Shown here: positions 1,251-20,763 of the stretch, piece after piece
Layout of the letters: the number at the start of each line of letters is the position of its first letter
Position numbering within the stretch: position 1 is the first letter of the stretch
Assembly: GCF_000203915.1 (NCBI RefSeq)
Contig: NC_008390.1
Location: forward strand, 2,046,001-2,110,000
DNA length: 64,000 nucleotides
DNA from: Burkholderia ambifaria AMMD
GTDB taxonomy: Bacteria; Pseudomonadota; Gammaproteobacteria; Burkholderiales; Burkholderiaceae
Direction of reading: 5' to 3'
Program-made: the position numbers and the translations under genes
Notes under the pieces: generated by a model
Seen by the model: the letters and a program-made list of their open reading frames with translations, nothing else
Databases searched by the model: none
What the model was told of the DNA's origin: nothing

Positions 1251-1582
1251 ATCGTCACCTCGAATACAACATCGTCGCCGTCGTAACGCCCGGCGATCCG
1301 AAAAGTTACTTTGCCGTCGACGACCGACAGCGCCTGGACACGATCGAGCGCAATGCGCGGCTCCCATCGACCGATCGCACGCGCCGCTTCCGCCTGCGCG
1401 GCCGATATCCAGCCGCGCGTGATCGGCAGGTCGACCATCAGCGGCAGATCGGAACCGTAATCAGGCCGCTCGCGGCGCGTGCCCTTGCGCGTGCTCAGAA
1501 TGTCCCCAATGCTCTGGACGAGATGGTCGACACCACCGATCAGCCGGCCCGTGCGACGGCACATTCCGACCAGCGCGACCAC
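1247..1582 (-). CDS. Baseplate protein W (P2 gpW / T4 gp25-like)
   Basis: A 111-residue gp25-like baseplate protein with the family signature RPDYGSDLPLMVDLPI in its first half. GTG at 1582 is the likely start: its G is the last base of the preceding TAG stop, and GAAGG lies about 7 bases upstream; ATG at 1564 is the alternative (105 residues). In P2 the protein joins the baseplate wedge with gpJ. One copy of the prophage-wide palindrome AAAGTTACTTT lies inside the gene at 1302-1312. Confidence 0.85.
   Translation of the reverse strand: MVALVGMCRRTGRLIGGVDHLVQSIGDILSTRKGTRRERPDYGSDLPLMVDLPITRGWISAAQAEAARAIGRWEPRIALDRVQALSVVDGKVTFRIAGRYDGDDVVFEVTI
1302..1312. repeat. Dispersed palindrome AAAGTTACTTT, copy 1
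   Basis: Perfect AAAGT-N-ACTTT palindrome inside the baseplate W gene, in sequence otherwise near 65% GC. One of eight copies or near-copies across the prophage and absent on inspection from the rest of the window. Candidate binding site for the ParB-like protein at 19165-20763 (inference). Confidence 0.6.
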
Positions 1583-1782
1583 TACTGCACCTTCGTCGGC
1601 ACGCGCTTGAAGCACCCGCGCGATTCGAGATACGCGATGTGCTCCGGCTGCGTGACTTGCGTCTTGCCCGCCAGCACGACGACGTGCGAGCCGTCCGGAA
1701 ACACAATCACGCGACTGCGGAACTCGGTATCGATGAAGGTGACAGTTGCCGTCGCCTGTACTTGCTGTGCGTCTTTCGCCAT
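1582..1782 (-). CDS. Small phage protein between V and W modules
   Basis: A 66-residue protein beginning MAKDAQQVQATATVTFIDTE, with a GSHVVVLAGKTQVTQPEHI middle. I do not recognise a named family. It is predicted soluble, and its stop codon overlaps the start of the W-like gene, so it is translated with the tail operon. It lies just downstream of an intrinsic terminator (1801-1821), so late transcripts must read through that terminator to express it. A minor tail or baseplate role is inferred from position only. Confidence 0.6.
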   Translation of the reverse strand: MAKDAQQVQATATVTFIDTEFRSRVIVFPDGSHVVVLAGKTQVTQPEHIAYLESRGCFKRVPTKVQ

Positions 1783-1793
1783 AAACGCCCCCA

Positions 1794-1821
1794 CAAATGA
1801 AAAACCCCGCACAAGGCGGGG
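1794..1821 (-). terminator. Intrinsic terminator inside the late operon, after V
   Basis: Stem CCCCGC/GCGGGG (1805-1810 with 1816-1821), loop ACAAG; on the minus strand it is followed by TTTTT (1800-1804). It stands between baseplate V and the W-J-I genes in the direction of late transcription. The 27 bases 1794-1820 match the terminator of the chromosomal tRNA-Asp gene (54881-54907) with one difference. Confidence 0.75.
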
Positions 1822-1822
1822 C

Positions 1823-1833
1823 AAAGTTACTTT
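1823..1833. repeat. Dispersed palindrome AAAGTTACTTT, copy 2
   Basis: Perfect copy in the gap between the tail-operon terminator and the moron start at 1873, about 40 bases upstream of that ATG. It could serve as an operator for the moron as well as a dispersed partition-type site (inference). Confidence 0.6.
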
Positions 1834-1872
1834 TGTTTAGAATTGCCATGCACATCCGCACGGAGCCACAGC

Positions 1873-2709
1873 ATGAGTACGCAGCGACGAACGACAATTA
1901 AGCGGCATACGATGAAGCCTTCACCAAGCAACTCAATTTCTCGTAGATTTGGTGCAGTGCTCTCGGCGATTTGGCCGTATATCAACGCATTCCTAAAGCA
2001 TCAATTTGTGCTCGTCGCAGTAGGATTCGTCCTTACCGGTCTACTCGCGACGCACCTGACCGAGAAGATTAATGACGACCGCCGACAGCGAGAAGCGACA
2101 ATCCACGACTACGATCAACTCCGGTCCTCTATCGATGACCTGCTCTCATCGTTCGAACTATATGCAGCAGCGTCCAAACATGCGATGCTCGCACTCCAAT
2201 CTGACCCGGCCGAGCCGATTCGGCTTCAAGCGTACAAGGACTATCTGGCTGCCTATGCCACTTGGGTTCAGCGCCACTCGTTTGACTACGTCTCTATTAA
2301 CCAACGCTTCATACACGGCGACACCGCGAGCACGATCAACAAAATTGGCAGCCTGATGAAGCTTGGGACGGAGCAGTTGGACAACTGCTTCCAGTCGTAC
2401 TTCAACAAGGCGGTAACACCTCGGGATAATGAGCGCATCGACCTTTCCTGCGGGGTTGAACCGCCTCAGTTGCCGTTTACCATCGGATCGAGATTGATAT
2501 CGCTGCGCCAATGCATGGATTCGTTCGCGAGAGACATCAGGCTCCATCCTCTCTTCGATCTGAAAGGCGACGATGCGCGAAATGCCGTAACAGCAATTCG
2601 ACTCGACGGAATCGATGCTGTATGTTCGCCAGAACGATTGGTAGGTCTCAAAATGCCGCTGCGCGACCTACCGCGCAAGGTTCAACCAAGTCCTAAACGG
2701 GAGGGCTAA
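1873..2709 (+). CDS. Membrane-anchored moron protein of unknown function
   Basis: A 278-residue protein encoded against the direction of the tail genes, inserted between V and the 66-residue gene. It begins MSTQRRTTIKRHTMKPSPSN; GGAG 7 bases upstream supports ATG 1873 over ATG 1849. One transmembrane helix (about residues 41-61, FVLVAVGFVLTGLLA) is followed by a charged, probably helical domain facing either cytoplasm or periplasm. Base composition is clearly AT-richer than its neighbours, a sign of separate acquisition. Its last 17 bases overlap the end of the V gene tail to tail. Opposite orientation plus own control region marks it as a lysogenic-conversion gene (moron); superinfection exclusion or phage defence is possible but unproven. 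Confidence 0.7.
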   Translation: MSTQRRTTIKRHTMKPSPSNSISRRFGAVLSAIWPYINAFLKHQFVLVAVGFVLTGLLATHLTEKINDDRRQREATIHDYDQLRSSIDDLLSSFELYAAASKHAMLALQSDPAEPIRLQAYKDYLAAYATWVQRHSFDYVSINQRFIHGDTASTINKIGSLMKLGTEQLDNCFQSYFNKAVTPRDNERIDLSCGVEPPQLPFTIGSRLISLRQCMDSFARDIRLHPLFDLKGDDARNAVTAIRLDGIDAVCSPERLVGLKMPLRDLPRKVQPSPKREG

Positions 2710-3373: not shown

Positions 3374-3376
3374 ATG

Positions 3377-4421: not shown

Positions 4422-4423
4422 CG

Positions 4424-4714: not shown

Positions 4715-4715
4715 G

Positions 4716-5711: not shown

Positions 5712-5737
5712 ACAACCTCCAACAGGGAAATGGATAC

Positions 5738-5766: not shown

Positions 5767-5795
5767 GGATGGGCTTCAGGTAGCGTGCGCTGCGA

Positions 5796-6140: not shown

Positions 6141-6166
6141 GAGTGTTCCCCTCCTCGGGTATCGTC

Positions 6167-6177
6167 AAAGTTACTTG
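6167..6177. repeat. Dispersed palindrome copy 3 (one mismatch)
   Basis: AAAGTTACTTG, one base off the perfect palindrome, spanning the stop codon of the prohead protease gene (TAA at 6171-6173 on the minus strand). Between the protease and decoration genes. Confidence 0.45.
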
Positions 6178-7256
6178 CCGCTCTTGCGAGCCGCGTAGAT
6201 GGACGCCGCGCGCGGCGCGTTCGCGACCACGGCCGGCTCGTTTTGCGCCGTCGATTGAGCGCGGGGATTGATGCGCGATTGCGACGCCGTCACGCGCTCG
6301 AACAGTCGCGCGCGTACGTGATCGGGGGTCAGCCCGTCGGCGACGAACTGCGCGGTCAGCTCCGGCACATTCGCCGCAAGGCAGATCCCGGCGATGTCCG
6401 CGGCCTGCTGAAGCGCCGCGTCAACGGTTGCCCGATCCTTCAGGCCGGTCGCCGTCACGATCGCCTCGACGCAATGCGACAGGCGCGCGTCACGGCATGC
6501 CGCGAACACGTGCGATGCGAGCGCCGACACGTCGGGCGCTGGCGGCACCGGCTGCGGATCGGGATTGGGTTCGGGCGGTGTATTGGGTTGCGTGTCAGGC
6601 TGCGGCGGGTCGGTCGGCTCCGTCTCGTCGACCAGCGCCCGCACGACATCGGGCACCGCCGAAAAGCGCGCGAGCAGCGCCGTCGAGCTGGCCGACGCCG
6701 ACAGCTTCACTGCCGCCTCGATCGTGTCGCAGAAACCCTTCTCCTTTGCCTGCGCGGCCGTGAGCCACGTCTCGGCGTCCATCATGCCCCGGATCTCGTC
6801 GATCGACTGACCGCTCTTGGCCGCGTACGCCGCGAGAATCCCGTCGCCTGCGTTATCGAGCAGGTCGGCAATACGTCGCAGGTCTTTCGCCTCGCCCGCC
6901 GTCACCGTGTGCGCGTTGTGGATCATCAGCAGCGCGTTCTCCGGCATCACGATCTCGTCGCCGGCCATCGCAATCAGCGATGCGGCCGATGCCGCGACGC
7001 CGTCGACGCGCACCTTCACCTTGCCAGCGTGCCGGCGCAGTGCGTTGTAGATCGCGAACGCATCGAACACGTCGCCACCCATCGAGTTGATCGCCACCAC
7101 GATCGTGGAAGCGTTGGCCGCTGCCGCATCGAGCTGGGTCACGAAGGTCTGCGCGTCCGTGCCCCAAAAGCCGATCTCGTTATAGATCCGGATCTCGACC
7201 TCGCCGGCCGCGTTCGCCTGCGCCCGGATATCCCACCACTTATGATTGCGTTTCAT
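6171..7256 (-). CDS. Prohead protease, ClpP-like (lambda gpC-type, family S14)
   Basis: A 361-residue head maturation protease. The ClpP-fold domain covers about residues 1-200: nucleophile serine in VVAINSMGGDVFDA and catalytic histidine in LLMIHNAHTV. A Pro-rich linker (about residues 210-240) leads to a C-terminal part that may serve as scaffold, as in lambda C/Nu3. ATG 7256 has GGGGAG close upstream; ATG 7268 is the alternative and would overlap the portal gene. Confidence 0.85.
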   Translation of the reverse strand: MKRNHKWWDIRAQANAAGEVEIRIYNEIGFWGTDAQTFVTQLDAAAANASTIVVAINSMGGDVFDAFAIYNALRRHAGKVKVRVDGVAASAASLIAMAGDEIVMPENALLMIHNAHTVTAGEAKDLRRIADLLDNAGDGILAAYAAKSGQSIDEIRGMMDAETWLTAAQAKEKGFCDTIEAAVKLSASASSTALLARFSAVPDVVRALVDETEPTDPPQPDTQPNTPPEPNPDPQPVPPAPDVSALASHVFAACRDARLSHCVEAIVTATGLKDRATVDAALQQAADIAGICLAANVPELTAQFVADGLTPDHVRARLFERVTASQSRINPRAQSTAQNEPAVVANAPRAASIYAARKSGK

Positions 7257-7257
7257 C

Positions 7258-8745
7258 TCACTCCCCATTCGTATGCGCGAGCGGATCGGCGTCGTCCGTC
7301 GCATGCGTGTCGTACTGCAACCCCAACCGTTGCGCGCGCTGCTGATCAGCGGCGTTCTCGTCGTCGACCTGCTCCGGATCCTCGCCCTTCGCCAGAATCG
7401 CGCCGGTGCGGCTCGTCAGGCCCGCGCGAATCTCCGCGCGCTTGGCCGACACGTCCTGCACCGGGTGGATATACGGCCAGCCCTGCGGCACCCACCGCAC
7501 CCGCACGTATTCGCGCCGGGCGCGGTGATAGTTCGGCATCGACAACGCGCCGGACAGCGCGCACGCGTCTACCCACCAGCGCCAGATTCGCCGGCAGAAC
7601 TGGTGGATGAACACGTTCTGCTGCAGCTGCTCGATCGAGCGTCGGAACTCGTTGAGCAACACGCGCAGCACGCGGTCGCTGACGTCGCGCAGATCACCCG
7701 TCAGCACTTCGTACGGCATGCCGACCGACGCGGCTGCCGCCATCAGCTGCTGGCGCATGAACGGCGCGTAATCGGCCCCGGCACCGGGTGGCGTTGCGAA
7801 CTTCACGTCTTCGCCGGGCGCCAGTTCCTGCATCGCGCCCGGCTCCAGCGACACGACCGGCGAAAAGCCGTCAACGTCGAACTCGATCGGCGCACCGGAA
7901 ACGGGATCGCCGAGCGGGCCGACCTCCGCCTGTGGTTTCACGATGAACCCGGCAAAGAGGTTGCTCACCTCCTGACGGAACAGCACCGCGTCGTCGAAGT
8001 TGTCGAGCGAATGCAGCCGCAGCAGCACCGTCGACAGCTCGGGCACACCGCGCACCTGACCGGGCCGCAGCCCGTGGAAGACGTGCGCGATCTCGTCGGC
8101 CGGTACGCGCACCGTCTGCGTCGCGTCACCGGCAAAGCGGTTGTACTCACCCGGATGGCGGCGCAGCAGGTGATACGCGACGCGCTCGCCGTCTTCGTTG
8201 AACTCGACGCCGTTGATGATCTCCCCGCCTGGAATCGGCTCGTTCTTCGTGACTGGCAACAGGTCGCCTTCGAGCAGCTGGATCTGCATCGGCACTGCCA
8301 GCCCGGCATGCGGCGGACGCAGGCGGCGGCGCACCAGCACCTCGCCGTCGCTGAAGAACGCCCGCGCGGCGAGCGTCTGCAAGCCGTACAGGTCGTGCAC
8401 ACCATCCGCATCCAGCTCGCCCGAGCTGTCGTCCCAAAGTTGCTTTTGTTCGCGGCGCACGTCCGCGTCCGGATGCTGCGGATGCGCCTGAATACCCGTG
8501 CCGATCGTGTTCGACACCAGCCGCGCGATTGCGGTCTTCGCCCATGGGTCATTACGGATCGCGTCACGGGCGCGGTGGCGCATCAGCGGCAGGTTCTGCA
8601 CGACCGATGCGTTCGGTCCCGCGCTCGACGCCTGCCATGACTTCGCCCGCGCCCCGCGCGTGCCAGCCGATTCGTACGCCGCCGCGTTCAGGCGCGTGGG
8701 CACGACAAAGCCGCGCTGCGCGAGAACCGGATATGCGCGGCTCAT
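7258..8745 (-). CDS. Portal protein (lambda gpB family)
   Basis: A 495-residue lambda-family portal. Seen: an N-terminal region typical of the family (SVVQNLPLMRHRARDAIRND), the core FRQEVSNLFAGFIVKP and the C-terminal arm SMPNYHRARREYVRVRWVPQ. It forms the dodecameric DNA channel at one vertex and docks terminase and the neck proteins. It overlaps the end of the gpW-like gene by four bases. A variant of the prophage-wide palindrome lies inside at 8436-8446. Confidence 0.93.
   Translation of the reverse strand: MSRAYPVLAQRGFVVPTRLNAAAYESAGTRGARAKSWQASSAGPNASVVQNLPLMRHRARDAIRNDPWAKTAIARLVSNTIGTGIQAHPQHPDADVRREQKQLWDDSSGELDADGVHDLYGLQTLAARAFFSDGEVLVRRRLRPPHAGLAVPMQIQLLEGDLLPVTKNEPIPGGEIINGVEFNEDGERVAYHLLRRHPGEYNRFAGDATQTVRVPADEIAHVFHGLRPGQVRGVPELSTVLLRLHSLDNFDDAVLFRQEVSNLFAGFIVKPQAEVGPLGDPVSGAPIEFDVDGFSPVVSLEPGAMQELAPGEDVKFATPPGAGADYAPFMRQQLMAAAASVGMPYEVLTGDLRDVSDRVLRVLLNEFRRSIEQLQQNVFIHQFCRRIWRWWVDACALSGALSMPNYHRARREYVRVRWVPQGWPYIHPVQDVSAKRAEIRAGLTSRTGAILAKGEDPEQVDDENAADQQRAQRLGLQYDTHATDDADPLAHTNGE
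8436..8446. repeat. Dispersed palindrome copy 4 (one mismatch)
   Basis: AAAGTTGCTTT within the portal gene; its complement AAAGCAACTTT is exactly the variant found at 18626 and 20070, so the T-to-C change is a shared sub-type and not random decay. Confidence 0.45.
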
Positions 8746-8948: not shown

Positions 8949-8957
8949 GTGTTTCTC

Positions 8958-11072
8958 CTAGCGGCGCTTCAGGTACGTCGAGCGAGCGACACGCCGGCCC
9001 TGAATGCGCGAAACCCCGCTCGGTGGCGGGGTTTCGGGTGGTTTAGCGACCGGCTGAACCGGCTCGATCGGTGGCGGTGGATCGGCATCCGTCTGCACGG
9101 TCGGCAGTGTCTCGACCGGCAATGCAGACGGTAGCGATTCCAATATCGGAACAGCATCGAACAGAGAAACCTGCGAGATGCGCACCTGTTCGACGCGCCA
9201 ATGCGCTTCGGTCATCAGGTGGGTTTTGGCGCTGCGTGCCGCGTGCAGCGCATAGACTTCGCAGTCGAGCGCTTCGTTACGGGCGCTGGCCTTCTTCTGC
9301 CAGACACGCTTGGTGCCGATCCGGCCCGGCACCTTGACCTCGGCTGTCACCTGCGCGAGATAGTCGGAACGCACGCCCACATACCAGTGCATGCGCCCCG
9401 GCCCATCGCCATCGAGCTTCAGCCGGTTGTCGAGGATCAGGTCTTTCGCCTTGCTGACCCCGACCATGTACGGGCGCAGGCCGTATTTCGCGGCCTTGCT
9501 GTTGTTGCGCGTCGAATCGACCGACGCCTTCGGTACGCTGAAAATCTCCGAGTTGGCCTCGGTGCTGCCCTTGATCGCCAGCACGTTCAGCCCTACCCGC
9601 TGCGCAGCACGCACATATTTGTATACCGCGTCCGATGTCGAGCCGTCCGACGAATCGATCGATGTCGCGCGAACACGCAATACGCCGCCGCTTTCGTGCC
9701 GGTAGCCGTGCGTCACCAGCGCGGTCAACGCGCCCCATACGCCGCCCGACAGCGGGTCGGCTTCCTGATGCAGCACGTTGCCGTGAATCTCGTCCCACGC
9801 AACGAGCCAGCTTTCCTCACCACGTCCCCACGCGCGCAGGATGATTGCGAGCCGGTCGTGCTGCACGTCGACACCGAGCGTCAGCAACAGACCGCCGGCC
9901 GGCACCATGAATGCCGCGTACGGCATCGCACGCGCGGCCAGCACGTCCAGCTCCGGCAGGTCGCTCTTGTACTTGTACGGCCGACCCTGCGAGTTGTTCA
10001 CGAACGCACGCATTTTCGTGTCGTCGCCCTCGCGCAGCGCCTTCTCGGCCGTCAGCCACTTCTTGACCAGCTCCGCCATGCGCGAGCCGGGGAACGGCGA
10101 TACCAACTCGTTCAGACGAAAGCCCGCGACGCCGTGAAACGGCGCCGTCGCAACCCATCGCCCATGCCGGACCGCACACACACGCGCCGAGTCGTCCCAC
10201 AACGAGCCGCAGTGCGGGCACGTATAGCGTGCCGAGTCCGGCCGTGCCCGGCCGAACACCTCATGTGCGACTTCGGCGTCCTCGCTCCAGGTCACGTTCT
10301 CCCACGCCAGCTCATGCTCCTCGCCGCAATCGGGGCACGGCACCAGATAGATGCGTTGATCCGAAGTCAGATACGCTTGCTGGATGCGCGAGAAGCCGTC
10401 AACGGTGGGCGTGCCACCGAAAATTACCTTGCGGCGGCTGTCCGAATAGCTCTTGTTGCGTTCCTCCAGCAGCGTGATCGAATCGCCCTGATCGCGCACG
10501 TTCGTGTTCGCATCGTCCGGCTCCTCGACCGCGACGACCGGGGCCGGCGTCGACTTCACATCGTCCGGCGCGTTCGACGTAATGAACTTCAGGAACCCGC
10601 GCGGGAACGTCTTGTGATCCCACAGGTTGTTCTTGTCGCGCGCAGCATGCACCGGCAATTTTGCCGACAGGCGAGGCGTCACCTCGACCATCGGTTCGAA
10701 CTTCTCGAGATTGAACTTCTTCGCCGACTTCTCTTTCGCAAACATGACGATCATCGGACACGGATCGACGTCGATCCGCTTGCCGATGTAGTTCAGCAGC
10801 ACACCATCCGTCCACGCGACCTGCGCCGATTTCATGCACACGATCTTTTGCACGGTCGGATCGTCGAGCGCGTCATGCATGCCGAACACCCACGGCGTGA
10901 TGTTCGGGTTATAGCGGCCCGGCGTCGCCGTCGCTTTCGCGCTCATCCTGCGATGCTTGCGCGCCCACTCCGTCGTCCCGATCCGCTCGGGCGGACGGAG
11001 AAGCTTCGCAATCCGGCGAATCACCGCCCGGACTGTCTGCGTCGTATTCAGAAAGCTGCTGAAGGCATCCAT
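8958..11072 (-). CDS. Terminase large subunit (lambda gpA family)
   Basis: A 704-residue packaging motor and nuclease. The N-terminal ATPase half contains KIVCMKSAQVAWTDGVLLNY (adenine/Walker-A-like region) and VVAVEEPDDANTNV (Walker-B-like acidic pair); CPDCGEEHE and CPHCG form a zinc-binding insert at about residues 245-285. The C-terminal nuclease part begins near LLTLGVDVQHDRLAI. A Pro-rich tail of about 45 residues may be the portal-binding end. The start overlaps the TerS gene by more than 150 bases. Confidence 0.92.
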   Translation of the reverse strand: MDAFSSFLNTTQTVRAVIRRIAKLLRPPERIGTTEWARKHRRMSAKATATPGRYNPNITPWVFGMHDALDDPTVQKIVCMKSAQVAWTDGVLLNYIGKRIDVDPCPMIVMFAKEKSAKKFNLEKFEPMVEVTPRLSAKLPVHAARDKNNLWDHKTFPRGFLKFITSNAPDDVKSTPAPVVAVEEPDDANTNVRDQGDSITLLEERNKSYSDSRRKVIFGGTPTVDGFSRIQQAYLTSDQRIYLVPCPDCGEEHELAWENVTWSEDAEVAHEVFGRARPDSARYTCPHCGSLWDDSARVCAVRHGRWVATAPFHGVAGFRLNELVSPFPGSRMAELVKKWLTAEKALREGDDTKMRAFVNNSQGRPYKYKSDLPELDVLAARAMPYAAFMVPAGGLLLTLGVDVQHDRLAIILRAWGRGEESWLVAWDEIHGNVLHQEADPLSGGVWGALTALVTHGYRHESGGVLRVRATSIDSSDGSTSDAVYKYVRAAQRVGLNVLAIKGSTEANSEIFSVPKASVDSTRNNSKAAKYGLRPYMVGVSKAKDLILDNRLKLDGDGPGRMHWYVGVRSDYLAQVTAEVKVPGRIGTKRVWQKKASARNEALDCEVYALHAARSAKTHLMTEAHWRVEQVRISQVSLFDAVPILESLPSALPVETLPTVQTDADPPPPIEPVQPVAKPPETPPPSGVSRIQGRRVARSTYLKRR

Positions 11073-12580: not shown

Positions 12581-13354
12581 TCATCCTCGCAATTGACGAC
12601 GCAATGTGTCGTACACCGATCCATCTACCGTATCCAACAGCGCGAGCATGTCGTGAAAGCGCCACGACCAGTTCCGCCGATACTCGTCGAGCGATACGCC
12701 GAGCGCGTGCGCCCGGCCAGCGTCGTCGACCTGCCGCTTGCCGGTACCGAAACAGTCCGGGCAAATGTGCCGGCCCTTCGCATCCGGAGCGGGCGACGCC
12801 GCGATCCGCCCCATCCCACCGCAGTCCTCGCATGGTTCGTATTCCCGAAAGACGAGCGGCCCGTTACGCCCTTCGAAGAACGGGATACGTTCCTCCGACA
12901 CGCACACCTTCCCACTTCCTCCGCATACATCACACGTGTGCGTTGACGTCGTGACGGCACGCGTGCGGCGCACGACGCCACGCCCCTCGCACTCGACACA
13001 CTGGTCGTTCACCCACTCGTCCAGCAACCGCAGGGCGAACCGCTCGACGATGTCGACCTTCGATCGCTCGACAGCATGCCCCGCACGTTGATCGCGACGC
13101 TCGTCGCGCGAGAGGCCCGTGAACCGTGCACGCTTGAATCGACCCGACGTCCGGATCATCTGCGCCAACAGCAACGTTGCACGTCGAATCATCGCAGGCG
13201 TCGGCAGCGGCCCGGCCTTGATTCGGGCTAGCGCGCTACCGAGATCGTTCGCAAAGGCGAGCGCGCCCAAAGTAACTTTAGGATCGGCAATCGGGTCGGT
13301 GAACTGACCACGAACGCTCATCGCAACGCCCACCCGCTCTTTCAAATCGATCAT
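12581..13354 (-). CDS. Candidate late antiterminator, Q-like, with DnaJ-type zinc motifs
   Basis: A 257-residue protein with four CxxCxGxG-type motifs (CVECEGRG, CDVCGGSG, CEDCGGMG, CPDCFGTG) at about residues 120-210, a DnaJ-like double zinc cluster. The N-terminal part is helical and basic. Q-type antiterminators of lambdoid phages (Antiterm family) carry related cysteine clusters and sit directly before the late operon, as this gene does. AGGAGAG supports ATG 13354. Five terminators downstream in the late operon fit such a function. A zinc-dependent DNA-binding role of another sort is the alternative. Confidence 0.62.
   Translation of the reverse strand: MIDLKERVGVAMSVRGQFTDPIADPKVTLGALAFANDLGSALARIKAGPLPTPAMIRRATLLLAQMIRTSGRFKRARFTGLSRDERRDQRAGHAVERSKVDIVERFALRLLDEWVNDQCVECEGRGVVRRTRAVTTSTHTCDVCGGSGKVCVSEERIPFFEGRNGPLVFREYEPCEDCGGMGRIAASPAPDAKGRHICPDCFGTGKRQVDDAGRAHALGVSLDEYRRNWSWRFHDMLALLDTVDGSVYDTLRRQLRG
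13269..13279. repeat. Dispersed palindrome AAAGTAACTTT, copy 5
   Basis: Perfect AAAGT-N-ACTTT, in the 5' part of the Q-like gene. Confidence 0.6.
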
Positions 13355-13576: not shown

Positions 13577-16084
13577 TCACAGCGGACTGTCGTCATCACC
13601 CGCTGCGACCAGTTCACGTTCCACTTCCGGCTCTTGCTGCTCGCTCACGTAATACCAACCGCGCGACCCTGTCGACTCGCGCTTGCGTACCCACCCGAGC
13701 GACTTCAACGCCTTGCCGATGCGGCGCTGCTCCGCCAGCGTCCACTTCGACGTATCGAGCTTCAGGATGTCCGCGAGGATCTCTTCCATCGTCGTGCGCG
13801 ACACGAATTCCAGGGCCTTTGCGATCTTGTCCTCGTACACGTCGCCTTCGTAGCGCTCCGCCTGCTCGATCTCGAACAGCGGGCGTTCATGCTCTTCCAC
13901 GTGCCACACGACGCCCGTGCGGTACAGGTGCACGGCTTCGGCCCAAAGCTGATCACGCACGGCCACGATGCCGTCGATATCGACCAGACCACCGACACGC
14001 AGCGGCCAGTAGCGTCGGTTGCCCGACTCGTCCTTCAGGTACGTATCGAAGTTGACCGAGCCAGCGAAGACGCACTGACGCGGGACGTCGGTCGCACGCT
14101 TACCGTAGAAGTTGCGGAACCGGTCGACGGCCGTCGCGAAGAAGCTTTTCACTGCCGACGAGTCGGCCTTGTTCAACGAGTCCAGTTCGGCGAGTTCGAT
14201 CACCCACTTACCGGCCAGCACCGCGTACGTGTCTTTGTTGCCAATCTGGATCGGCGTATCGGTGAACCACGGAGCGCCGGCCAGCACCTTCAGCGCTGTC
14301 GATTTGCGATGCCCCTGCTTGCCTTCGAGGATCAAGACGTTGTCCACCTTGCAGCCCGGCTCCATCACGCGAGCGACGGCCGCGATCATCCATTTCATGA
14401 ACGCGAGCTGTACATACTCGCTGTCAGCCACGCGCAGGTATGTCGACGGCATCGAACGGACACGCGGTACGCCGTCCCATTTCAGCCCTTCAAGGTATTC
14501 GCGCACGTCATGGAAGTGTGTAGCGTCCGCCACCAACAGGACCGCGTTCATCACGATATCGGTACGCACCGAGAGGCCGTACCGCTGCGACAACCAGAGC
14601 GCGCAGCGCTGATCGTCCATGTCGGTCCATTCACCTGTCACGCCTTGCGGGAACGGCGGCGCCTTGCGCTTCATCACGCGTCCACCGAAGTCGTCCTGCT
14701 CGATGACGCCCTGCCATGCCTTGTGGTTCGACAGGATCATGTGCACGTTGCCGAGCGTCGGCAGCAGCGTGCCCTTGTCCGAACGCGCCAGATCCTGCTC
14801 CCACGTGTGCGCGCCGTTCTCTGCCTCACGGCCATCCCATTCCGGCTGTTTCGCGGCAGCGGACGTCGCGGCGGGCTTCGTCGGCGTCTCGTCCGCGGTC
14901 GACACTGCAACCGTTGCCGGCCGGATCTCTTCGTTCGCTGGGGCGATGACGCGCAAGATTGCCGCCTGCAGCTGTGCCTCGACAGCCTCGAAGCCCTCTT
15001 CGACGTGCAGGTCGTTGAAATCGGTCAGCTTGCGCTCGCCGCGATTAGCGAATACCGGATAGATAACGCTGACGTCGTCGACTGTCGCTGCCGCCTCATA
15101 CGCGCGCTTCAGGCCCGTGTTCTCGAAGCGCTTGCGACGCAGCGGCATAACGTCGTTGCCATAGCTGACCTCGACATACGGCACGCCGTTGTCGTCACGA
15201 CGGCGTGACACGGCAACCATGTACCACGTGTTCTTCGCTTCTATCCGCACCGGGTCTGCACCAAACACCAGTTCGCCCCGGAAAGCAAACTCATCGGCGA
15301 GCCAGTCGCGCATGCGCTGCTCGATCTTCCAGTCGTCGTCGGCGCAGACCAGCACATGCACATCCGGATACGTCATACGCAGGTAGCGCACGGCCGGAAG
15401 GATGCCACCCGCGTCAAAACAGATATTGACCGCGAACGCGTCGTCGATCGCCATGCGGATCGCACGCGCGGTTGCATAGCCTTCGGCGACCAGCACGACC
15501 TGGTCATCTGGACCGACCTCACCGAGCAGATACGAAGCGCCCTTCTTCTCCATGCCCTTGTTGAAGCGCTTCGCGCCGTCCGGCGTGATCTTTTGCAGGC
15601 CGACGAGACGGGCGCCGTCGCCGTACTGATACATCGGCACGAAGATCGTGCCGTCCGCGTCGAAACGTACGCCTTCTGCCGTGATGTGTTTGCGGTCGAG
15701 ATAGGCGGACTCGCCATGCTCTGCAGCACGGTTCCACTGGTCGCGTGCACGGTTCGCGGCGAGCTTCGCCTGCCGTGCGTCGCGCTCGACCTGTTCGCGG
15801 TCGGCAGCCTCTTGCCGGCGACGCGTTTCCGCGAGCGCTTCTTCGCTCAACGGTGCGCCGCCCCACTCGAATCGCTCGGTGCCCGGATCGTCGCCCGAGA
15901 AGTGGCCGAACGTACCGCCATAGCCGATCACTGAGCCCTTGCTGACGACCTCGCGAAGCTGATACCAGTATTTCTTGCGCGGCCCGTACCGATGATGTTT
16001 CCCGTCCGCGACCGGATGGCCGGCGGGTAGGTCAGGATGCCCCGCCGCACGCAATTGCTGAATGATCTGGTCCAGTGTCGCCAT
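13577..16084 (-). CDS. Phage primase-helicase (TOPRIM plus VirE/D5-like ATPase)
   Basis: An 835-residue replication protein. N-terminal part (about 1-130) resembles phage DNA primases; TOPRIM follows at about 190-270 (VVLVAEGYATARAIRMA, later VLVCADDDW). The C-terminal half is a VirE-type AAA+ helicase with Walker A LEGKQGHRKSTALKVL and an acidic IELAELDSL. It would prime and unwind phage DNA from an origin; the nested palindrome just downstream is a candidate. ATG 16084 is preferred to an upstream in-frame start because it is the family-like beginning MATLDQIIQQLRAAGHPDLP. Confidence 0.85.
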   Translation of the reverse strand: MATLDQIIQQLRAAGHPDLPAGHPVADGKHHRYGPRKKYWYQLREVVSKGSVIGYGGTFGHFSGDDPGTERFEWGGAPLSEEALAETRRRQEAADREQVERDARQAKLAANRARDQWNRAAEHGESAYLDRKHITAEGVRFDADGTIFVPMYQYGDGARLVGLQKITPDGAKRFNKGMEKKGASYLLGEVGPDDQVVLVAEGYATARAIRMAIDDAFAVNICFDAGGILPAVRYLRMTYPDVHVLVCADDDWKIEQRMRDWLADEFAFRGELVFGADPVRIEAKNTWYMVAVSRRRDDNGVPYVEVSYGNDVMPLRRKRFENTGLKRAYEAAATVDDVSVIYPVFANRGERKLTDFNDLHVEEGFEAVEAQLQAAILRVIAPANEEIRPATVAVSTADETPTKPAATSAAAKQPEWDGREAENGAHTWEQDLARSDKGTLLPTLGNVHMILSNHKAWQGVIEQDDFGGRVMKRKAPPFPQGVTGEWTDMDDQRCALWLSQRYGLSVRTDIVMNAVLLVADATHFHDVREYLEGLKWDGVPRVRSMPSTYLRVADSEYVQLAFMKWMIAAVARVMEPGCKVDNVLILEGKQGHRKSTALKVLAGAPWFTDTPIQIGNKDTYAVLAGKWVIELAELDSLNKADSSAVKSFFATAVDRFRNFYGKRATDVPRQCVFAGSVNFDTYLKDESGNRRYWPLRVGGLVDIDGIVAVRDQLWAEAVHLYRTGVVWHVEEHERPLFEIEQAERYEGDVYEDKIAKALEFVSRTTMEEILADILKLDTSKWTLAEQRRIGKALKSLGWVRKRESTGSRGWYYVSEQQEPEVERELVAAGDDDSPL

Positions 16085-16103
16085 ATAGAAAATCCCTCTG
16101 CAA

Positions 16104-16114
16104 AAAGTCACTTT
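16104..16114. repeat. Dispersed palindrome AAAGTCACTTT, copy 6
   Basis: Perfect copy 20 bases upstream of the primase-helicase start, in the short gap after the 57-residue gene. The position would suit transcriptional or translational control of the replication gene as well as partition. Confidence 0.6.
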
Positions 16115-16159
16115 GGCCGCGTGTCGCGGCCAGATCACGATTCGATAAGCGGCGGCCGG

Positions 16160-16333
16160 CTAAATCGCACGACGAGCCGCATCCAGCTCGACGAGCCGGC
16201 GGTCGCGTTCGACCTTGTGCGCAAAGCTGCGCCATACGCCTCGCCCGGCCGCATAGGACTGCCGCCCACTCGGCGAGCGGCTGTACTGCGATGCGCCGCG
16301 TCGCAACGCGCTACTGATTCCGTTCACGTTCAT
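16160..16333 (-). CDS. Small basic phage protein upstream of primase
   Basis: A 57-residue basic protein, MNVNGISSALRRGASQYSRS onward, ending VELDAARRAI. GGAG six bases before ATG 16333 supports expression. It lies in the leftward early operon between the 127-residue gene and the primase-helicase. No family recognised; size and charge suggest a nucleic-acid-binding accessory. Confidence 0.5.
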   Translation of the reverse strand: MNVNGISSALRRGASQYSRSPSGRQSYAAGRGVWRSFAHKVERDRRLVELDAARRAI

Positions 16334-16345
16334 AGGGGTCTCCGG

Positions 16346-16729
16346 TTATTTGCCGCGTAGTCGACGCCATTCCGCCGACATGGAATCGTCGAACGCGGCA
16401 AGGTCCAGCGCGCAGAGACGATCAGTAAGCTGGTCGCGGAACGCGTGGCGTTCCGCCTTGGTTGCGAGCGCGGCGCATGCTCGCGCGGCGCGCTCGACGA
16501 ACAAGCGCACGCTCCCCGCCGCGCTCGCTTCCGCGAGAATCGGAGCGAGACGATCGGGGAACGTGGCAATCAGTTCGGACAGCAGGCGCCCCGCTTCTGC
16601 AGGGGCGCCCTCGAATCGGGCTGCGAGCGTCGTTGCAGCGCACGCCAATTGCTGCTCGGGCGAGCAGCAGAGGCCGATCTGTTCACGCTCGGGCCGGCAG
16701 CACGCCATGCCGTGTTTAAACCGATCCAT
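16346..16729 (-). CDS. Hypothetical helical phage protein
   Basis: A 127-residue Ala-rich helical protein starting MDRFKHGMACCRPEREQIGL, with five cysteines in its first 30 residues (CC at 10-11, CC at 21-22, C at 29), possibly metal-binding. It overlaps the end of the CII-like gene by 14 bases and precedes the 57-residue gene, so it belongs to the leftward early operon. Function unknown. Confidence 0.5.
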   Translation of the reverse strand: MDRFKHGMACCRPEREQIGLCCSPEQQLACAATTLAARFEGAPAEAGRLLSELIATFPDRLAPILAEASAAGSVRLFVERAARACAALATKAERHAFRDQLTDRLCALDLAAFDDSMSAEWRRLRGK

Positions 16730-17288
16730 GACGACGACGACGACGTGCGGCGAGGTTGCGAGCAGCGTGAATCAAACGCTGGAACAGACGCTGGCCCTTG
16801 CGGCCGGTCGCGATGATCCGCTCCGCTTCGTGGTCGTCGATTCGCTGATCTGCCAAAGCACGTGTCACATCGTCAGCGACGAGACCGACGTGTGCCTGCA
16901 GGTGCAGCGCCGTTGAAACGAGACGCAGCGTGCCCGGCTCCCCGGACTCGTCAGCCGTGTGATCGTCAACCTGTTCCGCAACCAATCCGAACCGGGCATT
17001 CAGCGCGTGCAAAGCGTCGAGCGCATGTACCTCAGCCTCAGACTTTTCCTGCATCCACTCAACGAGCAGCTCGAACATCTCCATGGACAATCGGCTGTCA
17101 CCGACGCCTCGCAAACGCAGGCGCAGAGATTCCGGCGTGATGTTCTTGCCGCGTCGGATCGTGAGGTAGTTCGCCGCGTCGGCGACGCCGCCGGGCGTGT
17201 TGCGAACGGACGTATAGAGGACGTCCAGCCATTCAGTGCTGTCGTATCGGCAGGTCATAGGTGGGATTTGGTAGACACTGGCTTTCAT
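16716..17288 (-). CDS. Phage regulatory protein CII family (P2/CP76-like)
   Basis: About 190 residues; the core YDSTEWLDVLYTSVRNTPGG and SRLSMEMFELLVEWMQEK match the Phage_CP76/CII-type regulators of P2-like and Burkholderia phages, which act in the lysis-lysogeny decision. It is the second gene left of the promoter at cro. Start is uncertain: ATG 17288 is given, ATG 17258 would fit the family's usual beginning, and neither has a good ribosome site. Confidence 0.6.
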   Translation of the reverse strand: MKASVYQIPPMTCRYDSTEWLDVLYTSVRNTPGGVADAANYLTIRRGKNITPESLRLRLRGVGDSRLSMEMFELLVEWMQEKSEAEVHALDALHALNARFGLVAEQVDDHTADESGEPGTLRLVSTALHLQAHVGLVADDVTRALADQRIDDHEAERIIATGRKGQRLFQRLIHAARNLAARRRRRHGSV

Positions 17289-17366
17289 CCTGTCGCGCAT
17301 TTGCGCGCGCAACTAAGATTCGGTCCATGAGTTGCGTAACAGCTGGGCAACGCAACTGCGCCGGCT

Positions 17367-17576
17367 TCACCTCGATTCGTCGTGTGAATCCAGAGACGCA
17401 AACAGATCGGGGCGTGCGAGCTTCAGGAACAATAGACGTGCGCGCGGAATGCCATTTCGGCGCCACTCCGATACGGATGGCATGCGAACTTCGCAAAGCT
17501 GAGCGGTGGCCGCCGTACCTCCGAAGGCGTCGATTACGGCACACGCGTACGGGTCTCGGTTCTGTAGCGTATTCAT
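17367..17576 (-). CDS. Cro-like repressor (YdaS/Cro family)
   Basis: A 69-residue HTH protein; the helix-turn-helix spans GGTAATAQLCEVRMPSVSEW and is followed by RRNGIPRARLLFLKL, the pattern of Cro/YdaS-type repressors in Burkholderia prophages. It diverges from cI across 70 bases with three operators. The predicted start of transcription (from -10 at 17583-17588) falls on or within a base or two of the ATG, and no ribosome site is visible, so the message may be leaderless. Confidence 0.75.
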   Translation of the reverse strand: MNTLQNRDPYACAVIDAFGGTAATAQLCEVRMPSVSEWRRNGIPRARLLFLKLARPDLFASLDSHDESR

Positions 17577-17582
17577 GCCGCA

Positions 17583-17611
17583 ATGTTAGGCGCTCCTTAC
17601 ACAAAACGCAA
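17583..17611 (-). promoter_or_regulatory. Promoter for cro and the leftward early operon
   Basis: On the minus strand: -35 TTGCGT (17606-17611), 17-base spacer, -10 TAACAT (17583-17588). Operators O1 and O2 overlap the -10 and -35. The rightward early promoter has the same TTGC..-17-TAACAT form. Confidence 0.65.
17585..17600. promoter_or_regulatory. Operator O1 in the cI-cro gap
   Basis: GTTAGGCGCTCCTTAC, a 16-bp imperfect palindrome of the consensus GTTAGGCATTCCTAAC shared by five sites at this switch. It covers part of the cro -10 box. Confidence 0.65.
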
Positions 17612-17623
17612 GGCATTCCTAAC
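17608..17623. promoter_or_regulatory. Operator O2 in the cI-cro gap
   Basis: GCAAGGCATTCCTAAC: the left arm is degenerate, the right arm perfect. It overlaps the cro -35 box. Confidence 0.65.
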
Positions 17624-17632
17624 GCCCAATCA

Positions 17633-17648
17633 GTTAGGCTTTCCTAAT
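17633..17648. promoter_or_regulatory. Operator O3 overlapping the cI start codon
   Basis: GTTAGGCTTTCCTAAT; its last two bases are the first two of the cI ATG (17647). Repressor bound here would block its own gene, as O_R3 does in lambda (inference). Confidence 0.65.
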
Positions 17649-18078
17649 GACGACACTAGCCGAACGCCTGGAACAGGCAATGAAATTGCCGCCCGAAAAG
17701 AAGGCTGCGGATTTGGCGCGCGCTTGCCGCGTTCGCGCCCCGTCAGTCAGTGACTGGCTGAGTGGCAAAACAAAAAAGATGGAGGGGGCGAACCTGCTGC
17801 TCGCAGCGGAGTTCCTGAACGTCGATCCTTGGTGGCTTGCGACCGGCGAAGGGCAAATGATGCGTCGTGCCAATGCGCCGGCACCCCACAAACAGGAGAC
17901 CTTGGGCGCGCACGCTCAGGCTCTTGTCGACGCGCTCGCCAAAGCGGACAGAGTCGGAATGCCGTCGAGCGCGTTCGTCGCCCTACTCGAGACACTTAAG
18001 GTGTTTGAAGATCTACGCGGCCAGCGACAGTCTGGAGATCTTCTTGATCTGAATGCCCCAGACCCGCAAGTGGAGTAA
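17647..18078 (+). CDS. CI-like prophage repressor without peptidase domain
   Basis: A 143-residue repressor. The HTH-XRE domain covers about residues 1-65 (KKAADLARACRVRAPSVSDW then LAAEFLNVDPWWLATGEG); the rest is a short helical tail. The S24/LexA-like self-cleavage domain of lambda CI is missing, so RecA cannot inactivate it by autoproteolysis; induction must come from elsewhere. It has no visible ribosome site and may be leaderless like lambda cI from P_RM. Its 3' end overlaps a convergent gene headed by a LexA-type box. Confidence 0.82.
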   Translation: MTTLAERLEQAMKLPPEKKAADLARACRVRAPSVSDWLSGKTKKMEGANLLLAAEFLNVDPWWLATGEGQMMRRANAPAPHKQETLGAHAQALVDALAKADRVGMPSSAFVALLETLKVFEDLRGQRQSGDLLDLNAPDPQVE

Positions 18079-18298
18079 GGTTCCAGTCGAAGAGTGCGGC
18101 CCGATGATGCGTTGCGACTCGTCCTGACCGAATGCCGCGGCCTCTAATCGGGCCACCGAGAAGTTCCACATCCCAATCAAAATCTTTGGTGTCGTGCGGA
18201 CCAATCACCCGCACCAGTACACCGATGCGCGACCGGTTCAGGCATCGACTGACAATCGCCACATCGCCCGGTTTGCAGCGCAATTCCCCTGTTGACAT
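17996..18298 (-). CDS. Small gene converging on cI, downstream of a LexA-type box
   Basis: A 100-residue protein, MSTGELRCKPGDVAIVSRCL onward, with a CKPGDVAIV and VLVRVIGPHD pattern seen in small proteins of Burkholderia prophages. It overlaps the last 83 bases of cI in the opposite direction. A LexA-like box lies 43 bases before its ATG. I infer it may help induction, as antirepressor (compare Tum of phage 186) or by transcriptional interference with cI. The start lacks a well-spaced ribosome site, so its N-terminus is not certain. Confidence 0.55.
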   Translation of the reverse strand: MSTGELRCKPGDVAIVSRCLNRSRIGVLVRVIGPHDTKDFDWDVELLGGPIRGRGIRSGRVATHHRAALFDWNLTPLAGLGHSDQEDLQTVAGRVDLQTP

Positions 18299-18340
18299 AG
18301 CCCCGTACCAACCTCCCCTCGGTAATATTTACGCATAGCA

Positions 18341-18356
18341 CTGTATAAACATACAG
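18341..18356. promoter_or_regulatory. LexA (SOS) box
   Basis: CTGTATAAACATACAG has the CTG-N10-CAG form with an AT-rich core, very close to the enterobacterial LexA consensus. On the minus strand it overlaps a possible -10 (TATGTT) set 18 bases from TTGAAT, so it would silence transcription of the gene at 17996-18298 until DNA damage. Confidence 0.7.
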
Positions 18357-18449
18357 TATTTCATCGGACGAATTCAAGACCTTTCAAAGACATTCTCCAT
18401 TCCCGCTTCTACCGGTGAGTAGCGAGTGGGCGAATGTATCGAGCAAAAA

Positions 18450-18465
18450 GTTAGGCATTCCTATT
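18450..18465. promoter_or_regulatory. Operator O4 at the rightward early promoter
   Basis: GTTAGGCATTCCTATT, 14 of 16 bases fitting the shared consensus. It touches the -35 (TTGCAA, 18464-18469). Confidence 0.65.
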
Positions 18466-18492
18466 GCAATACGAGGAAGGAATGCCTAACAT
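18464..18492 (+). promoter_or_regulatory. Rightward early promoter
   Basis: -35 TTGCAA (18464-18469), 17-base spacer, -10 TAACAT (18487-18492). Operators O4 and O5 abut it on both sides, so the cI product should shut it off in the lysogen. It drives the small membrane protein, the 120-residue protein, the ParB-like gene and probably alpA. Confidence 0.65.
18475..18490. promoter_or_regulatory. Operator O5 at the rightward early promoter
   Basis: GGAAGGAATGCCTAAC, the consensus read on the other strand; it overlaps the -10 box. Confidence 0.65.
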
Positions 18493-18534
18493 ACATCTCC
18501 ATTGCTGCCGCCAGCGCAGTTTTCGGAGAAACCT

Positions 18535-18753
18535 ATGAAACTGTTCGACCATCAATCGCATGCCCGCCATGAGTGGCTTCGCGAAGAACAACAGCATCGT
18601 GTCACGCCGTCCGAACCGGCCCGCCAAAGCAACTTTGAGAAGTCTGCGATCTTCCGGTGGACCGTTGTTGCCGCGCTGCTGTTCGTCGCCGTGAACGTGT
18701 TCCAAGACGATCCGGTTGTCGCACCGACGACCGCTTACCACGTCGCCGTCTAA
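18535..18753 (+). CDS. Small membrane protein, first gene of the rightward early operon
   Basis: A 72-residue protein, MKLFDHQSHARHEWLREEQQ onward, with one transmembrane segment (WTVVAALLFVAVNVF, about residues 48-62) near a short C-terminal tail; the charged N-terminus is likely cytoplasmic. GGAG seven bases upstream of ATG 18535. One of the dispersed palindromes lies inside (18626-18636). Function unknown. Confidence 0.55.
   Translation: MKLFDHQSHARHEWLREEQQHRVTPSEPARQSNFEKSAIFRWTVVAALLFVAVNVFQDDPVVAPTTAYHVAV
18626..18636. repeat. Dispersed palindrome AAAGCAACTTT, copy 7 (variant)
   Basis: One base from AAAGTAACTTT; the same variant recurs at 20070-20080 and, on the other strand, at 8436-8446. 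Within the first gene of the operon encoding the ParB-like protein. Confidence 0.5.
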
Positions 18754-18802
18754 TCCGCCCCGACCGTGCCGGGGCATGCGCCCCGGCGTCATGGAGACCA
18801 CC

Positions 18803-19165
18803 ATGCCGCGAATCAAAGCCCGAACCCTTCCCCTCGTCGACGTCGAACGTCGAGACACCCTCTCGCTTCGTACCATTGCGCGTTACGACCGCAACGCGAA
18901 GCGCCCGACAACACCAATCCTCGTCGGCAAATACGTCGTCGGTCGCCGACCGCTGGCCGATAGCCTTCACACGCTTTACATGATCCTCGACGGGACAGAG
19001 ATCGCGGGCACGCAAATCTCCATGCCGAGCGAAGGCGACTGCGCGAGCGCGGTCAAGCGCCTGCGTGACGCGAAGCGCGCAGCGGGCATCGAAGCATCAA
19101 ACGCGATCCACAAAGCGAAGAAGCCTCGCAAGGCTCGCATTGCGGCGACGCGGGAGGTTGCGTAA
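18803..19165 (+). CDS. Hypothetical phage early protein
   Basis: A 120-residue basic protein, MPRIKARTLPLVDVERRDTL onward, with a Lys/Arg-rich C-terminus (IHKAKKPRKARIAATREVA) suited to nucleic acid. GGAG 8 bases before ATG. Its stop TAA shares a base with the ParB-like start (TAATG), so the two are translationally coupled and may work together. No family recognised. Confidence 0.55.
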   Translation: MPRIKARTLPLVDVERRDTLSLRTIARYDRNAKRPTTPILVGKYVVGRRPLADSLHTLYMILDGTEIAGTQISMPSEGDCASAVKRLRDAKRAAGIEASNAIHKAKKPRKARIAATREVA

Positions 19166-20763
19166 TGGACGACCGCACGCAACAGCTCGACCTGACCGCT
19201 CCGATCCCAACCGGAAACATCAAGGCCGCAGCCGCGGCGGCCGGCGCAACGTCGGCGGACCTGTGGATGGTCCCCTACGAACAGCTGCACTACGATCCGG
19301 CTGACAACATCCGGGCGGTTGATACCGAATGGGTTGCACACCTGGCCGCGCTGATGCGCGAGAACGGGTACGACAAGGGCTCGCCCCTCCATTGCTACGC
19401 CCGGAAGGTTGACGGTAAAGATCTGCTCTACGTTTACAAGGGGCAGCACCGCTATCTCGCGGCGGGACACGTGATCGCAACCGGGAAGGATCTGGGGAAG
19501 ATCCCGGTCGTCGTCCGCGACGCCAAAAACGTGAACCGCGCCGAAATGGTGATCGACGGCTATCTCAGCAACGACAGCAAACGGTCGTCGCCGCTCGATT
19601 TGGCAGGCGTTGTCGCCGAGCTGCGCGACATTCACGGCATGACCCTCGCGGCCATCTGCAAGCGCCTGAATGTCACTGATCAAACAATCCGCGACGTCGG
19701 CCTGCTCGAACGGGCACCGGCTGAACTGCATCAGCTCGTACGCGACGGGCAATGCACCGGCACACTGGCGATCGAAGAGATCCGCCGGCATGGGGGTGAA
19801 AAGGCGCTCGAACGCATCGTTGTCGGGATCTCCAAAGCAGCGGAAGCCGGCAAGTCGAAGGTGACGAAGAAGTATCTCGAAGCCGTGCCCCTACTCGATC
19901 CGCTTCAGGACACGGCATCACTGGCAGAGCAGACAACATCCGCAAGCGCCACCGCTAGCCCCGAACCTGTCGCCACGTCGACGGCTGCAGACGTTACTGT
20001 CGAGACGCACGCGGCGGCACAAGCAGCCCCGCGCCACACGTCTCCCGCCAAGTTCAGCGAGAAGCAGTCAAAGCAACTTTTGCTGGCGCTGCAGGCTGTC
20101 TTGCGCGATGAAGGGTTCGGTAAGCTCGCGCCGGACACAATCCACGCTGTTCACACGGCGCTGTTGCCGATCAGCGATCTGCTTGATGCGAAGCCCGCCG
20201 GGAAAGTGTGGCCGGTCACGGAACCGGACGAGAGCGGCGGCTGCCAAGCCGTCGAGACCTTGCGCGGTCCCGAGCGAACCGGTCGGATCAAGGGGCCGCT
20301 CGCGCACATTCGCATCGCACAACCGAGACCGGGGGCATGGATTTACGCGATCGAGTACAACACCGGCACCAGCTTTGCGAGCGACCCTTTGAAGGTATCT
20401 CCGCAGACGCGCGCAGTGTGGACGCGCGTTCAGGCGATTCGTTCGGGCGCCGCGCGGCTCATCGAGACCATCAAGTCACCGATCCACGGGCAGACGAAGG
20501 TAGAGCAGGCGGCGTTTAAGAAGATTCTCGCGTGGGCGCACGAGATCATCGCTATGCCTGATCCCGATATGACTGTCGAATTCTCGGCAGCCACCGCCAA
20601 AGGCGAGCGCCCCGACCTGACGGACGTGTTAACGGCCATCGAGCACAAGCGGCGGATCAAGTCGAACACGGCGCTGCTGGCCGCTGCATTTCCGGCGCAG
20701 AAGGTAACGCCCGGTCTCGACCCTGCGTCGGCATGGGCGCTCCCGACTGGAGGTGCGAAATGA
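19165..20763 (+). CDS. ParB/KorB-like DNA-binding protein (orphan)
   Basis: A 532-residue protein. The ParB/Srx N-terminal domain (about 35-135) has LYVYKGQHRYLAAG, where GQHR replaces the GERR box of classical, CTP-using ParB. An HTH follows (about 150-195: TLAAICKRLNVTDQTIRDVG). The rest is a linker and a C-terminal domain of about 200 residues I do not recognise. No parA is visible. The gene contains one copy of the AAAGCAACTTT variant (20070-20080). Likely roles: plasmid-like partition or replication control of phage DNA, or KorB-like global repression through dispersed operators. Confidence 0.78.
   Translation: MDDRTQQLDLTAPIPTGNIKAAAAAAGATSADLWMVPYEQLHYDPADNIRAVDTEWVAHLAALMRENGYDKGSPLHCYARKVDGKDLLYVYKGQHRYLAAGHVIATGKDLGKIPVVVRDAKNVNRAEMVIDGYLSNDSKRSSPLDLAGVVAELRDIHGMTLAAICKRLNVTDQTIRDVGLLERAPAELHQLVRDGQCTGTLAIEEIRRHGGEKALERIVVGISKAAEAGKSKVTKKYLEAVPLLDPLQDTASLAEQTTSASATASPEPVATSTAADVTVETHAAAQAAPRHTSPAKFSEKQSKQLLLALQAVLRDEGFGKLAPDTIHAVHTALLPISDLLDAKPAGKVWPVTEPDESGGCQAVETLRGPERTGRIKGPLAHIRIAQPRPGAWIYAIEYNTGTSFASDPLKVSPQTRAVWTRVQAIRSGAARLIETIKSPIHGQTKVEQAAFKKILAWAHEIIAMPDPDMTVEFSAATAKGERPDLTDVLTAIEHKRRIKSNTALLAAAFPAQKVTPGLDPASAWALPTGGAK
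20070..20080. repeat. Dispersed palindrome AAAGCAACTTT, copy 8 (variant)
   Basis: Inside the ParB-like gene itself; identical to copy 7. Confidence 0.5.

Follow-up and report, generated by a model that had tools for sequence, protein, structure and literature searches.

An array of 11-bp palindromes across a Burkholderia ambifaria prophage and its probable link to an orphan ParB-like protein

We describe an array of short palindromes that extends across a prophage of Burkholderia ambifaria AMMD, and its probable relation to a ParB-like protein encoded by the same prophage. The analysed stretch, hereafter the window, comprises 64,000 nucleotides (positions 2,046,001 to 2,110,000 of contig NC_008390.1; G000:C2:2046001-2110000) of a genome of 7,528,567 bases in 4 contigs. 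The 11-bp palindrome AAAGTNACTTT and its close variants are concentrated in the phage, are conserved in its relatives, go together with one family of ParB proteins, and change their word in other phage lineages while retaining their shape. Comparison of these sequences makes it very likely that the sites belong to the prophage's ParB. The best explanation, which we consider likely, is that the array would load this orphan protein as a clamp that forms a phage-specific coat or mark on the DNA.

The window contains the following sites, with positions counted from its first base. Conservation refers to 11 records, i.e., the prophage and 10 relatives, with up to 40 kb from each.

1302..1312, perfect site, AAAGTTACTTT; in 4 of 11 records, 6 others having the homologous DNA without the site
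1823..1833, perfect site, AAAGTTACTTT, right behind a hairpin; in 1 of 11 records (this prophage only)
6167..6177, possible degenerate site, AAAGTTACTTG
8436..8446, site in the portal gene, AAAGTTGCTTT; kept in 10 of 11 records
13269..13279, perfect site in a Q-like gene, AAAGTAACTTT; kept in 10 of 11 records, 1 loss
16104..16114, perfect site at the start of the primase-helicase open reading frame (ORF), AAAGTCACTTT; kept in 7 of 11 records
18626..18636, site upstream of phrog_9889 and parB, AAAGCAACTTT; kept in 8 of 11 records, 1 loss
20070..20080, site within parB, AAAGCAACTTT; kept in 9 of 11 records, with synonymous codons conserved

A preliminary description of this DNA had placed all eight correctly, as perfect copies at 1302, 1823, 13269 and 16104 and one-mismatch copies at 6167, 8436, 18626 and 20070, and had rightly found the remaining 42 kb of the window free of them, as no perfect or one-mismatch copy occurs there. 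Its remark that the copies follow no regular strand falls away, since strand has no meaning for a palindrome. The variants had been said to share one change; those at 8436 (read on the other strand), 18626 and 20070 are indeed the single sequence AAAGCAACTTT, whereas AAAGTTACTTG at 6167 departs at its last base and lies outside the form AAAGYNRCTTT. In that form the prophage has 10 sites (-11864, -4992, -3188, 1302, 1823, 8436, 13269, 16104, 18626 and 20070), of which three (-3188, -4992 and -11864) lie left of the window; the one at -3188 is the prophage's fifth perfect AAAGTNACTTT copy. The array, given as about 19 kb long, has that extent within the window but continues left to -11864 and spans about 32 kb.

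The motif had been claimed to be commoner than chance would allow, and the counts agree: the window holds four perfect copies of AAAGTNACTTT, against a mean of 0.01 and a maximum of 1 in 100 dinucleotide shuffles. Only 7 perfect copies occur in the whole genome (reversed control 2), five in the prophage and two at C2 2672551 and 2677436. The density in the host is thus far from equal to that in the prophage, and for the perfect form a word of the host genome was ruled out. The looser AAAGYNRCTTT is not rare genome-wide, with 19 copies here (reversed control 25), 10 of them in the prophage, and 13-30 copies in 7 other Burkholderia genomes (reversed control 32-41). Its enrichment is local; among the copies listed, a single contig has 12 of 24 in one genome (G040) and 13 of 21 in another (G045). 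The stretch around C2 2672551 and 2677436 (L002) can be aligned with accessory ends in prophages of the same kind (L047, L059, L061 and others). No ParB is found there, and the one ParB found in the whole genome lies in the window.

Relatives of the ParB were located in 51 viral and 7 genome loci, and 38 of the 51 viral loci were taken into a whole-record site count. All 36 records with a ParB more than 50% identical carry sites, at 4-13 AAAGYNRCTTT each (reversed control 0-1), and neither of the 2 records with a ParB 33-34% identical has any. A second set, 26 of 80 loci chosen by their portal gene, carries 4-13 sites in every record (reversed control 0-2), the 20 records with ParB having 6-13 each; four of the 6 without ParB (G055, G063, G069 and G071) stop short of the parB position. 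When all 1,024 palindromes of the same shape were ranked in 55 related loci, AAAGT-N-ACTTT led with 111 copies, the runner-up having 50 and the mean being 1.3. The commonest form of the site in the relatives is AAAGCAACTTT, with 83 of 181 distinct occurrences. Chance or base composition as the origin of the array was ruled out by the shuffles, this ranking, and host and simulated controls.

Conservation extends to position. The 97 sites of the 11 records fall into 28 groups. Seven of these recur in 7-10 records, losses numbering 0-1; one occurs in 6 records (2 losses) and three in 3-4 records, and the other 17 are single-record groups, 14 of them in DNA that has no homologue in the other records. 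The site within parB can also be followed at the level of codons: AAG is kept in 50 of 50, CAA in 48 of 50 and CTT in 49 of 51 sequences, whereas 163 conserved codons average 0.75; among the 26 A/T-ending codons, none is better conserved than CAA and CTT. Because synonymous codons under the site are conserved, the constraint, as judged from codon use, acts on the DNA word and not on the protein alone.

The proposed binder of the sites is encoded at the right-hand end of the array, behind a small gene.

18716..19165, plus strand, small protein phrog_9889, immediately before parB; its true start may be further right
19165..20763, plus strand, ParB-like protein of 532 amino acids, proposed site binder; phrog_1033, E 3.8e-66

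A profile built from nine members of this ParB family matches Spo0J (1.7e-16), Noc and KorB, and a Foldseek comparison (E 3e-8) of a structure model of the window ParB gives Noc, the top hit, ParB and KorB as the closest folds. PHROG, profile and fold matches all agree with an N-terminal nucleotide-binding fold and a helix-turn-helix domain as in ParB, Noc and KorB. The Box I motif GxxR is present as GQHR in the window ParB and as G[HQ]xR in 11 aligned family sequences. Many of its Burkholderia relatives (e.g., P0005, P0010 and P0011) carry the name 'pyridoxal phosphate biosynthetic protein PdxJ' in their source records, a misannotation that has evidently been passed on.

The preliminary description had likened the array to dispersed KorB or SopB sites and had left genome marking and partition side by side. 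The former comparison stands as far as the fold and the analogous arrays of other lineages (below) are concerned, and marking, through a binding that we infer, fits the data; the partition half does not stand. Phage N15, which is kept as a plasmid prophage with SopA, has dispersed SopB sites, and the present palindromes could by analogy be partition centromeres of a phage maintained in this way. No ParA-type ATPase (PF13614) was found in any of 18 records, which include fragments, with 14 of 14 control genomes positive; none of the family ParBs checked contains the ParA-binding motif of PMC12704722, and the prophage is located within a 3.56 Mb contig. With no ParA partner found, the window ParB is a lone protein, and partition, rejected for lack of ParA, is very improbable.

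Instead, we propose that the palindromes are dispersed nucleation sites for the orphan ParB. A ParB dimer would recognise the 11-bp palindrome via its helix-turn-helix domain, close as a nucleotide-dependent clamp and slide into the flanking DNA. With sites every 1.5-5 kb, its coverage could take in all of the phage genome but hardly anything else in the cell. Such a coat or mark, probably made when repressor control is lifted, might organise, protect or distinguish replicating phage DNA; it would not serve plasmid segregation. We infer binding, clamp sliding, coating and purpose alike, and put the coating purpose at slightly less than an even chance.

Further evidence comes from other phage lineages with ParBs of the phrog_1033 type. 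Twenty-two such sequences were scanned for over-represented palindromes with no motif named beforehand, several over their first 40-60 kb; where measured (Carli and ep3 not being among those measured), their ParBs are 29-34% identical to that of the window. In seven of the 22 there is a strong array, built on a different word but again with one central base. These comprise GAAGTNACTTC in BcepNazgul (18 copies, log10p -34) and Erythrobacter phage R16L (25 copies, log10p -53); GAAA-N3-TTTC in Sphingomonas phage Carli (39 copies, log10p -69), 38 of 39 being GAAAYNRTTTC, whose centre, Y-N-R, is shared with the word of the window's phage; ACAA-N3-TTGT, centred on ACAATNATTGT, in KA2-1, Arya and ep3 (13, 12 and 11 copies; best log10p -18, -14 and -12.5); and AAGTNACTT in an IMG record, G038 (13 copies against 3 in the control, log10p -10.8). 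No array was found in 40 kb each of five terminase-sharing phages without ParB (PS3, KT1, LPPA56, phiNP and Pyei1; best log10p -6.9), nor in three host stretches (best -6.0) or 42 simulated sequences (best -6.5). In OLIVR4, 7-7-1 and two plasmids, which were counted for AAGTNACTT only, there are 4, 5, and 3 and 0 copies, with controls of 2, 2, 4 and 1. Single-protein scans of viral contigs for further relatives gave none for Carli and R16L and only the queries themselves for Nazgul, AH2 and G038.

The placement of the sites bears on what the protein might do with them. In Carli, the 39 sites lie on average 1,501 bases apart, with a coefficient of variation of 0.38, compared with 0.96 for random placing, and 0 of 5,000 random placings were as even. 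Spacing is also even in R16L (P 0.005) and in KA2-1 and Arya (P 0.01-0.03); among eight relatives of the window's phage, P ranges from 0.015 to 0.41. Within the first 50 kb, 26 of 32 sites in Carli and 10 of 14 in Nazgul lie inside genes. As an even array mostly inside genes fits whole-genome coverage better than control of particular promoters, these data favour the proposed coat. A serious rival, although in our estimate an unlikely one, is that the lone ParB uses the same sites as a long-range regulator, repressing or activating phage promoters at a distance in the manner of KorB. KorB is among the closest solved structures, the sites have the dispersed, palindromic layout of its operators, and those located outside genes or across gene ends exceed the prediction from coding density (P 0.0015 in Carli, 0.003 in Nazgul). 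KorB, a regulator of plasmid RK2 that works with KorA at promoters, slides up to 1.5 kb to them according to PMC11790492. Against such a regulator stand the even spread in Carli and the position of most sites inside genes, late structural genes included.

A further candidate for the binder is the phage repressor, which lies with its own palindromes between the primase-helicase ORF and parB.

17585..17648, three operator-like palindromes of the TTAGGNNNNCCTAA type at the repressor gene
17647..18078, plus strand, phage repressor (CI-type); phrog_4, E 6.4e-12
18450..18490, two operator-like palindromes of the TTAGGNNNNCCTAA type upstream of the parB cluster

Mycobacteriophage L5 has dispersed repressor sites, called stoperators, and the array could be read in the same way. 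By its position, the repressor would bind the TTAGGNNNNCCTAA palindromes, which differ from the array word and are clustered. The TTAGGNNNNCCTAA operator was detected in 3 of 11 relatives checked, whereas the array word is present in all of these relatives, unchanged in those without the operator. Given that the repressor region has its own palindromes and that the array word occurs without them, the array word is, on sequence comparison, distinct from the repressor's operator and does not behave as a stoperator. The array as repressor operators was accordingly rejected and appears barely credible to us. The two TTAGGNNNNCCTAA palindromes upstream of the parB cluster indicate that parB is probably under repressor control, which in turn suggests its expression on induction. 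No sigma-70-like consensus promoter was found in 16000-19300. In heteroimmune relatives, operator hits upstream of parB were seen at -712 to -715, but also in 15 of 27 background regions, and were not used.

Several observations weigh against the proposed ParB coat. Searched alone, the window ParB has no Pfam or NCBIfam hit, and its structure model is a modest one of moderate confidence (pLDDT 69.5, pTM 0.36). Spacing is not significantly even in Nazgul (P 0.12), ep3 (P 0.21) and several relatives, and the 1302 site is missing from the homologous DNA of six records. Among the 22 other-lineage sequences, four have only weak arrays of the same shape (log10p -3 to -7), with AACTNAGTT five times in AH2, AAATNATTT five times in PPpW-3 and Persinger, and three copies in Mica. 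In Burkholderia phage AH2 (L085, L113), GACAC-N9-GTGTC (6 copies, log10p -11) outscores AACTNAGTT. Three sequences (8P, Lumi and Milano) have a different palindrome, and in eight (PBb001, PY223, seszw, RG-2014, Riah, FoX2, Mano and the 20-kb locus L055) nothing rises above noise. The positives represent few independent lineages; KA2-1, Arya and ep3 resemble one another and share one word. Finally, in two portal-picked records, G066 and G068, the early module is a different one and no ParB is detectable, yet they retain 5 and 4 sites, and these persisting sites count against strict ParB dependence.

The last of these points, together with the eight ParB-positive sequences without an array, would be explained if the sites served another phage or host protein that travels with parB. 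In G066, however, the 12 kb between 279 and 12270, which include the foreign early module, are site-free, and so are the last 26 kb of G068, where the capsid, portal and terminase genes lie besides the foreign early module. These site-free early modules count for ParB dependence. Across lineages the shared gene examined is that of ParB, the arrays share one geometry, and host DNA is not enriched. We therefore regard another binding protein as improbable.

The palindromes that differ in shape have distributions of their own. Five of the 6 GACAC-N9-GTGTC copies in AH2 lie at 5.9-13 kb. Pseudomonas phage 8P (L171-L173) has GTGTCGCGACAC five times over 27 kb (log10p -13), where its own ParB-like protein perhaps binds. 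In Xylophilus phage Lumi (L163-L166), nearly all of 15 copies of TTACT-N5-AGTAA lie in the first 2 kb and at 58-80 kb, which is operator-like, and in Agrobacterium phage Milano (L110-L112) palindromes of the TACAAATNATTTGTA type are bunched at 42-54 kb.

The late genes of the prophage occupy the minus strand and combine a head of the lambda-like type with the contractile-tail baseplate genes J and V. The lambda-like head genes are as follows.

6171-7304, minus strand, ClpP-type protease
7258-8745, minus strand, portal
8958-11072, minus strand, gpA terminase

The early region encodes a VapE-type primase-helicase, a CII-like protein and the repressor, followed rightwards by phrog_9889 and the ParB-like protein. 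Neither an integrase nor the precise ends of the prophage could be located; five ORFs on the right of parB are without a Pfam match, and there is no tRNA at 19000-30000 of the window. Amid the minus-strand tail genes, a plus-strand ORF of 288 amino acids at 1843-2709 has no Pfam match and is moron-like; the hairpin and the 1823 site lie at its left edge. To the right of parB, a 504-amino-acid ORF at 22349-23863 lies in low-GC DNA and has no PHROG or Pfam match.

ParB-family proteins that act from dispersed sites on plasmids and chromosomes are already known. Phage ParBs have been taken as signs of plasmid-like lysogeny (PMC7326821, PMC4490671), ParBs outside parAB operons are often found on mobile elements with largely open roles (PMC12704722), and a ParB/sulfiredoxin-domain protein is noted in other Erythrobacter phages in a paper whose available text lacks the stem 'palindrom' (PMC12185513). 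Searches of the open PMC literature, a scope that excludes preprints and most subscription papers, brought up no description of such phage arrays. The array is a real and strong feature and probably an undescribed one; no ParB-family protein acting from a genome-wide array came to light for ordinary tailed phages. Several phage orphan ParBs gain a predicted DNA target whose copies extend across the entire phage genome, and the question becomes one of genome-wide coating or long-range control instead of partition. Carli, with 39 sites at one per 1.5 kb, and R16L, with 25, give predictions precise enough to be tested directly. We also suggest, tentatively and with more doubt than belief, a widespread system in which a lone ParB clamp is loaded from short palindromes dispersed at even intervals and, during infection, coats the entire viral genome as a self-made, sequence-addressed chromatin that marks phage DNA as self. 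If true, such viral chromatin could shield phage DNA from nucleases or silencers or organise it, with an address word that diverges between lineages.

Among known systems, SopB of N15 resembles the one proposed here in that a phage genome carries scattered sites for a ParB-type protein; it differs in that N15 is a plasmid prophage with SopA, whereas no ParA-type gene was found here. KorB of RK2 shares a ParB-family protein with close profile and fold and several dispersed short palindromes, its operator OB likewise having one central base, but KorB acts at plasmid promoters, while the present sites have another word and cover the phage genome, mostly within genes. The sliding reach of 1.5 kb given for KorB in PMC11790492 is close to the spacing in Carli. 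Noc, the top Foldseek match of the window ParB, is also a ParB paralogue without ParA that acts from chromosomal sites; in contrast to the 11-bp phage sites, it uses the 16-bp NBS on the host chromosome and binds the membrane (PMC8429893). Lastly, the ParBs described here fit the description of orphan mobile-element ParBs in the survey of PMC12704722, in which we found no DNA target given for phage orphans and whose main text contains neither 'palindrom' nor 'dispersed', whereas here such targets are proposed.

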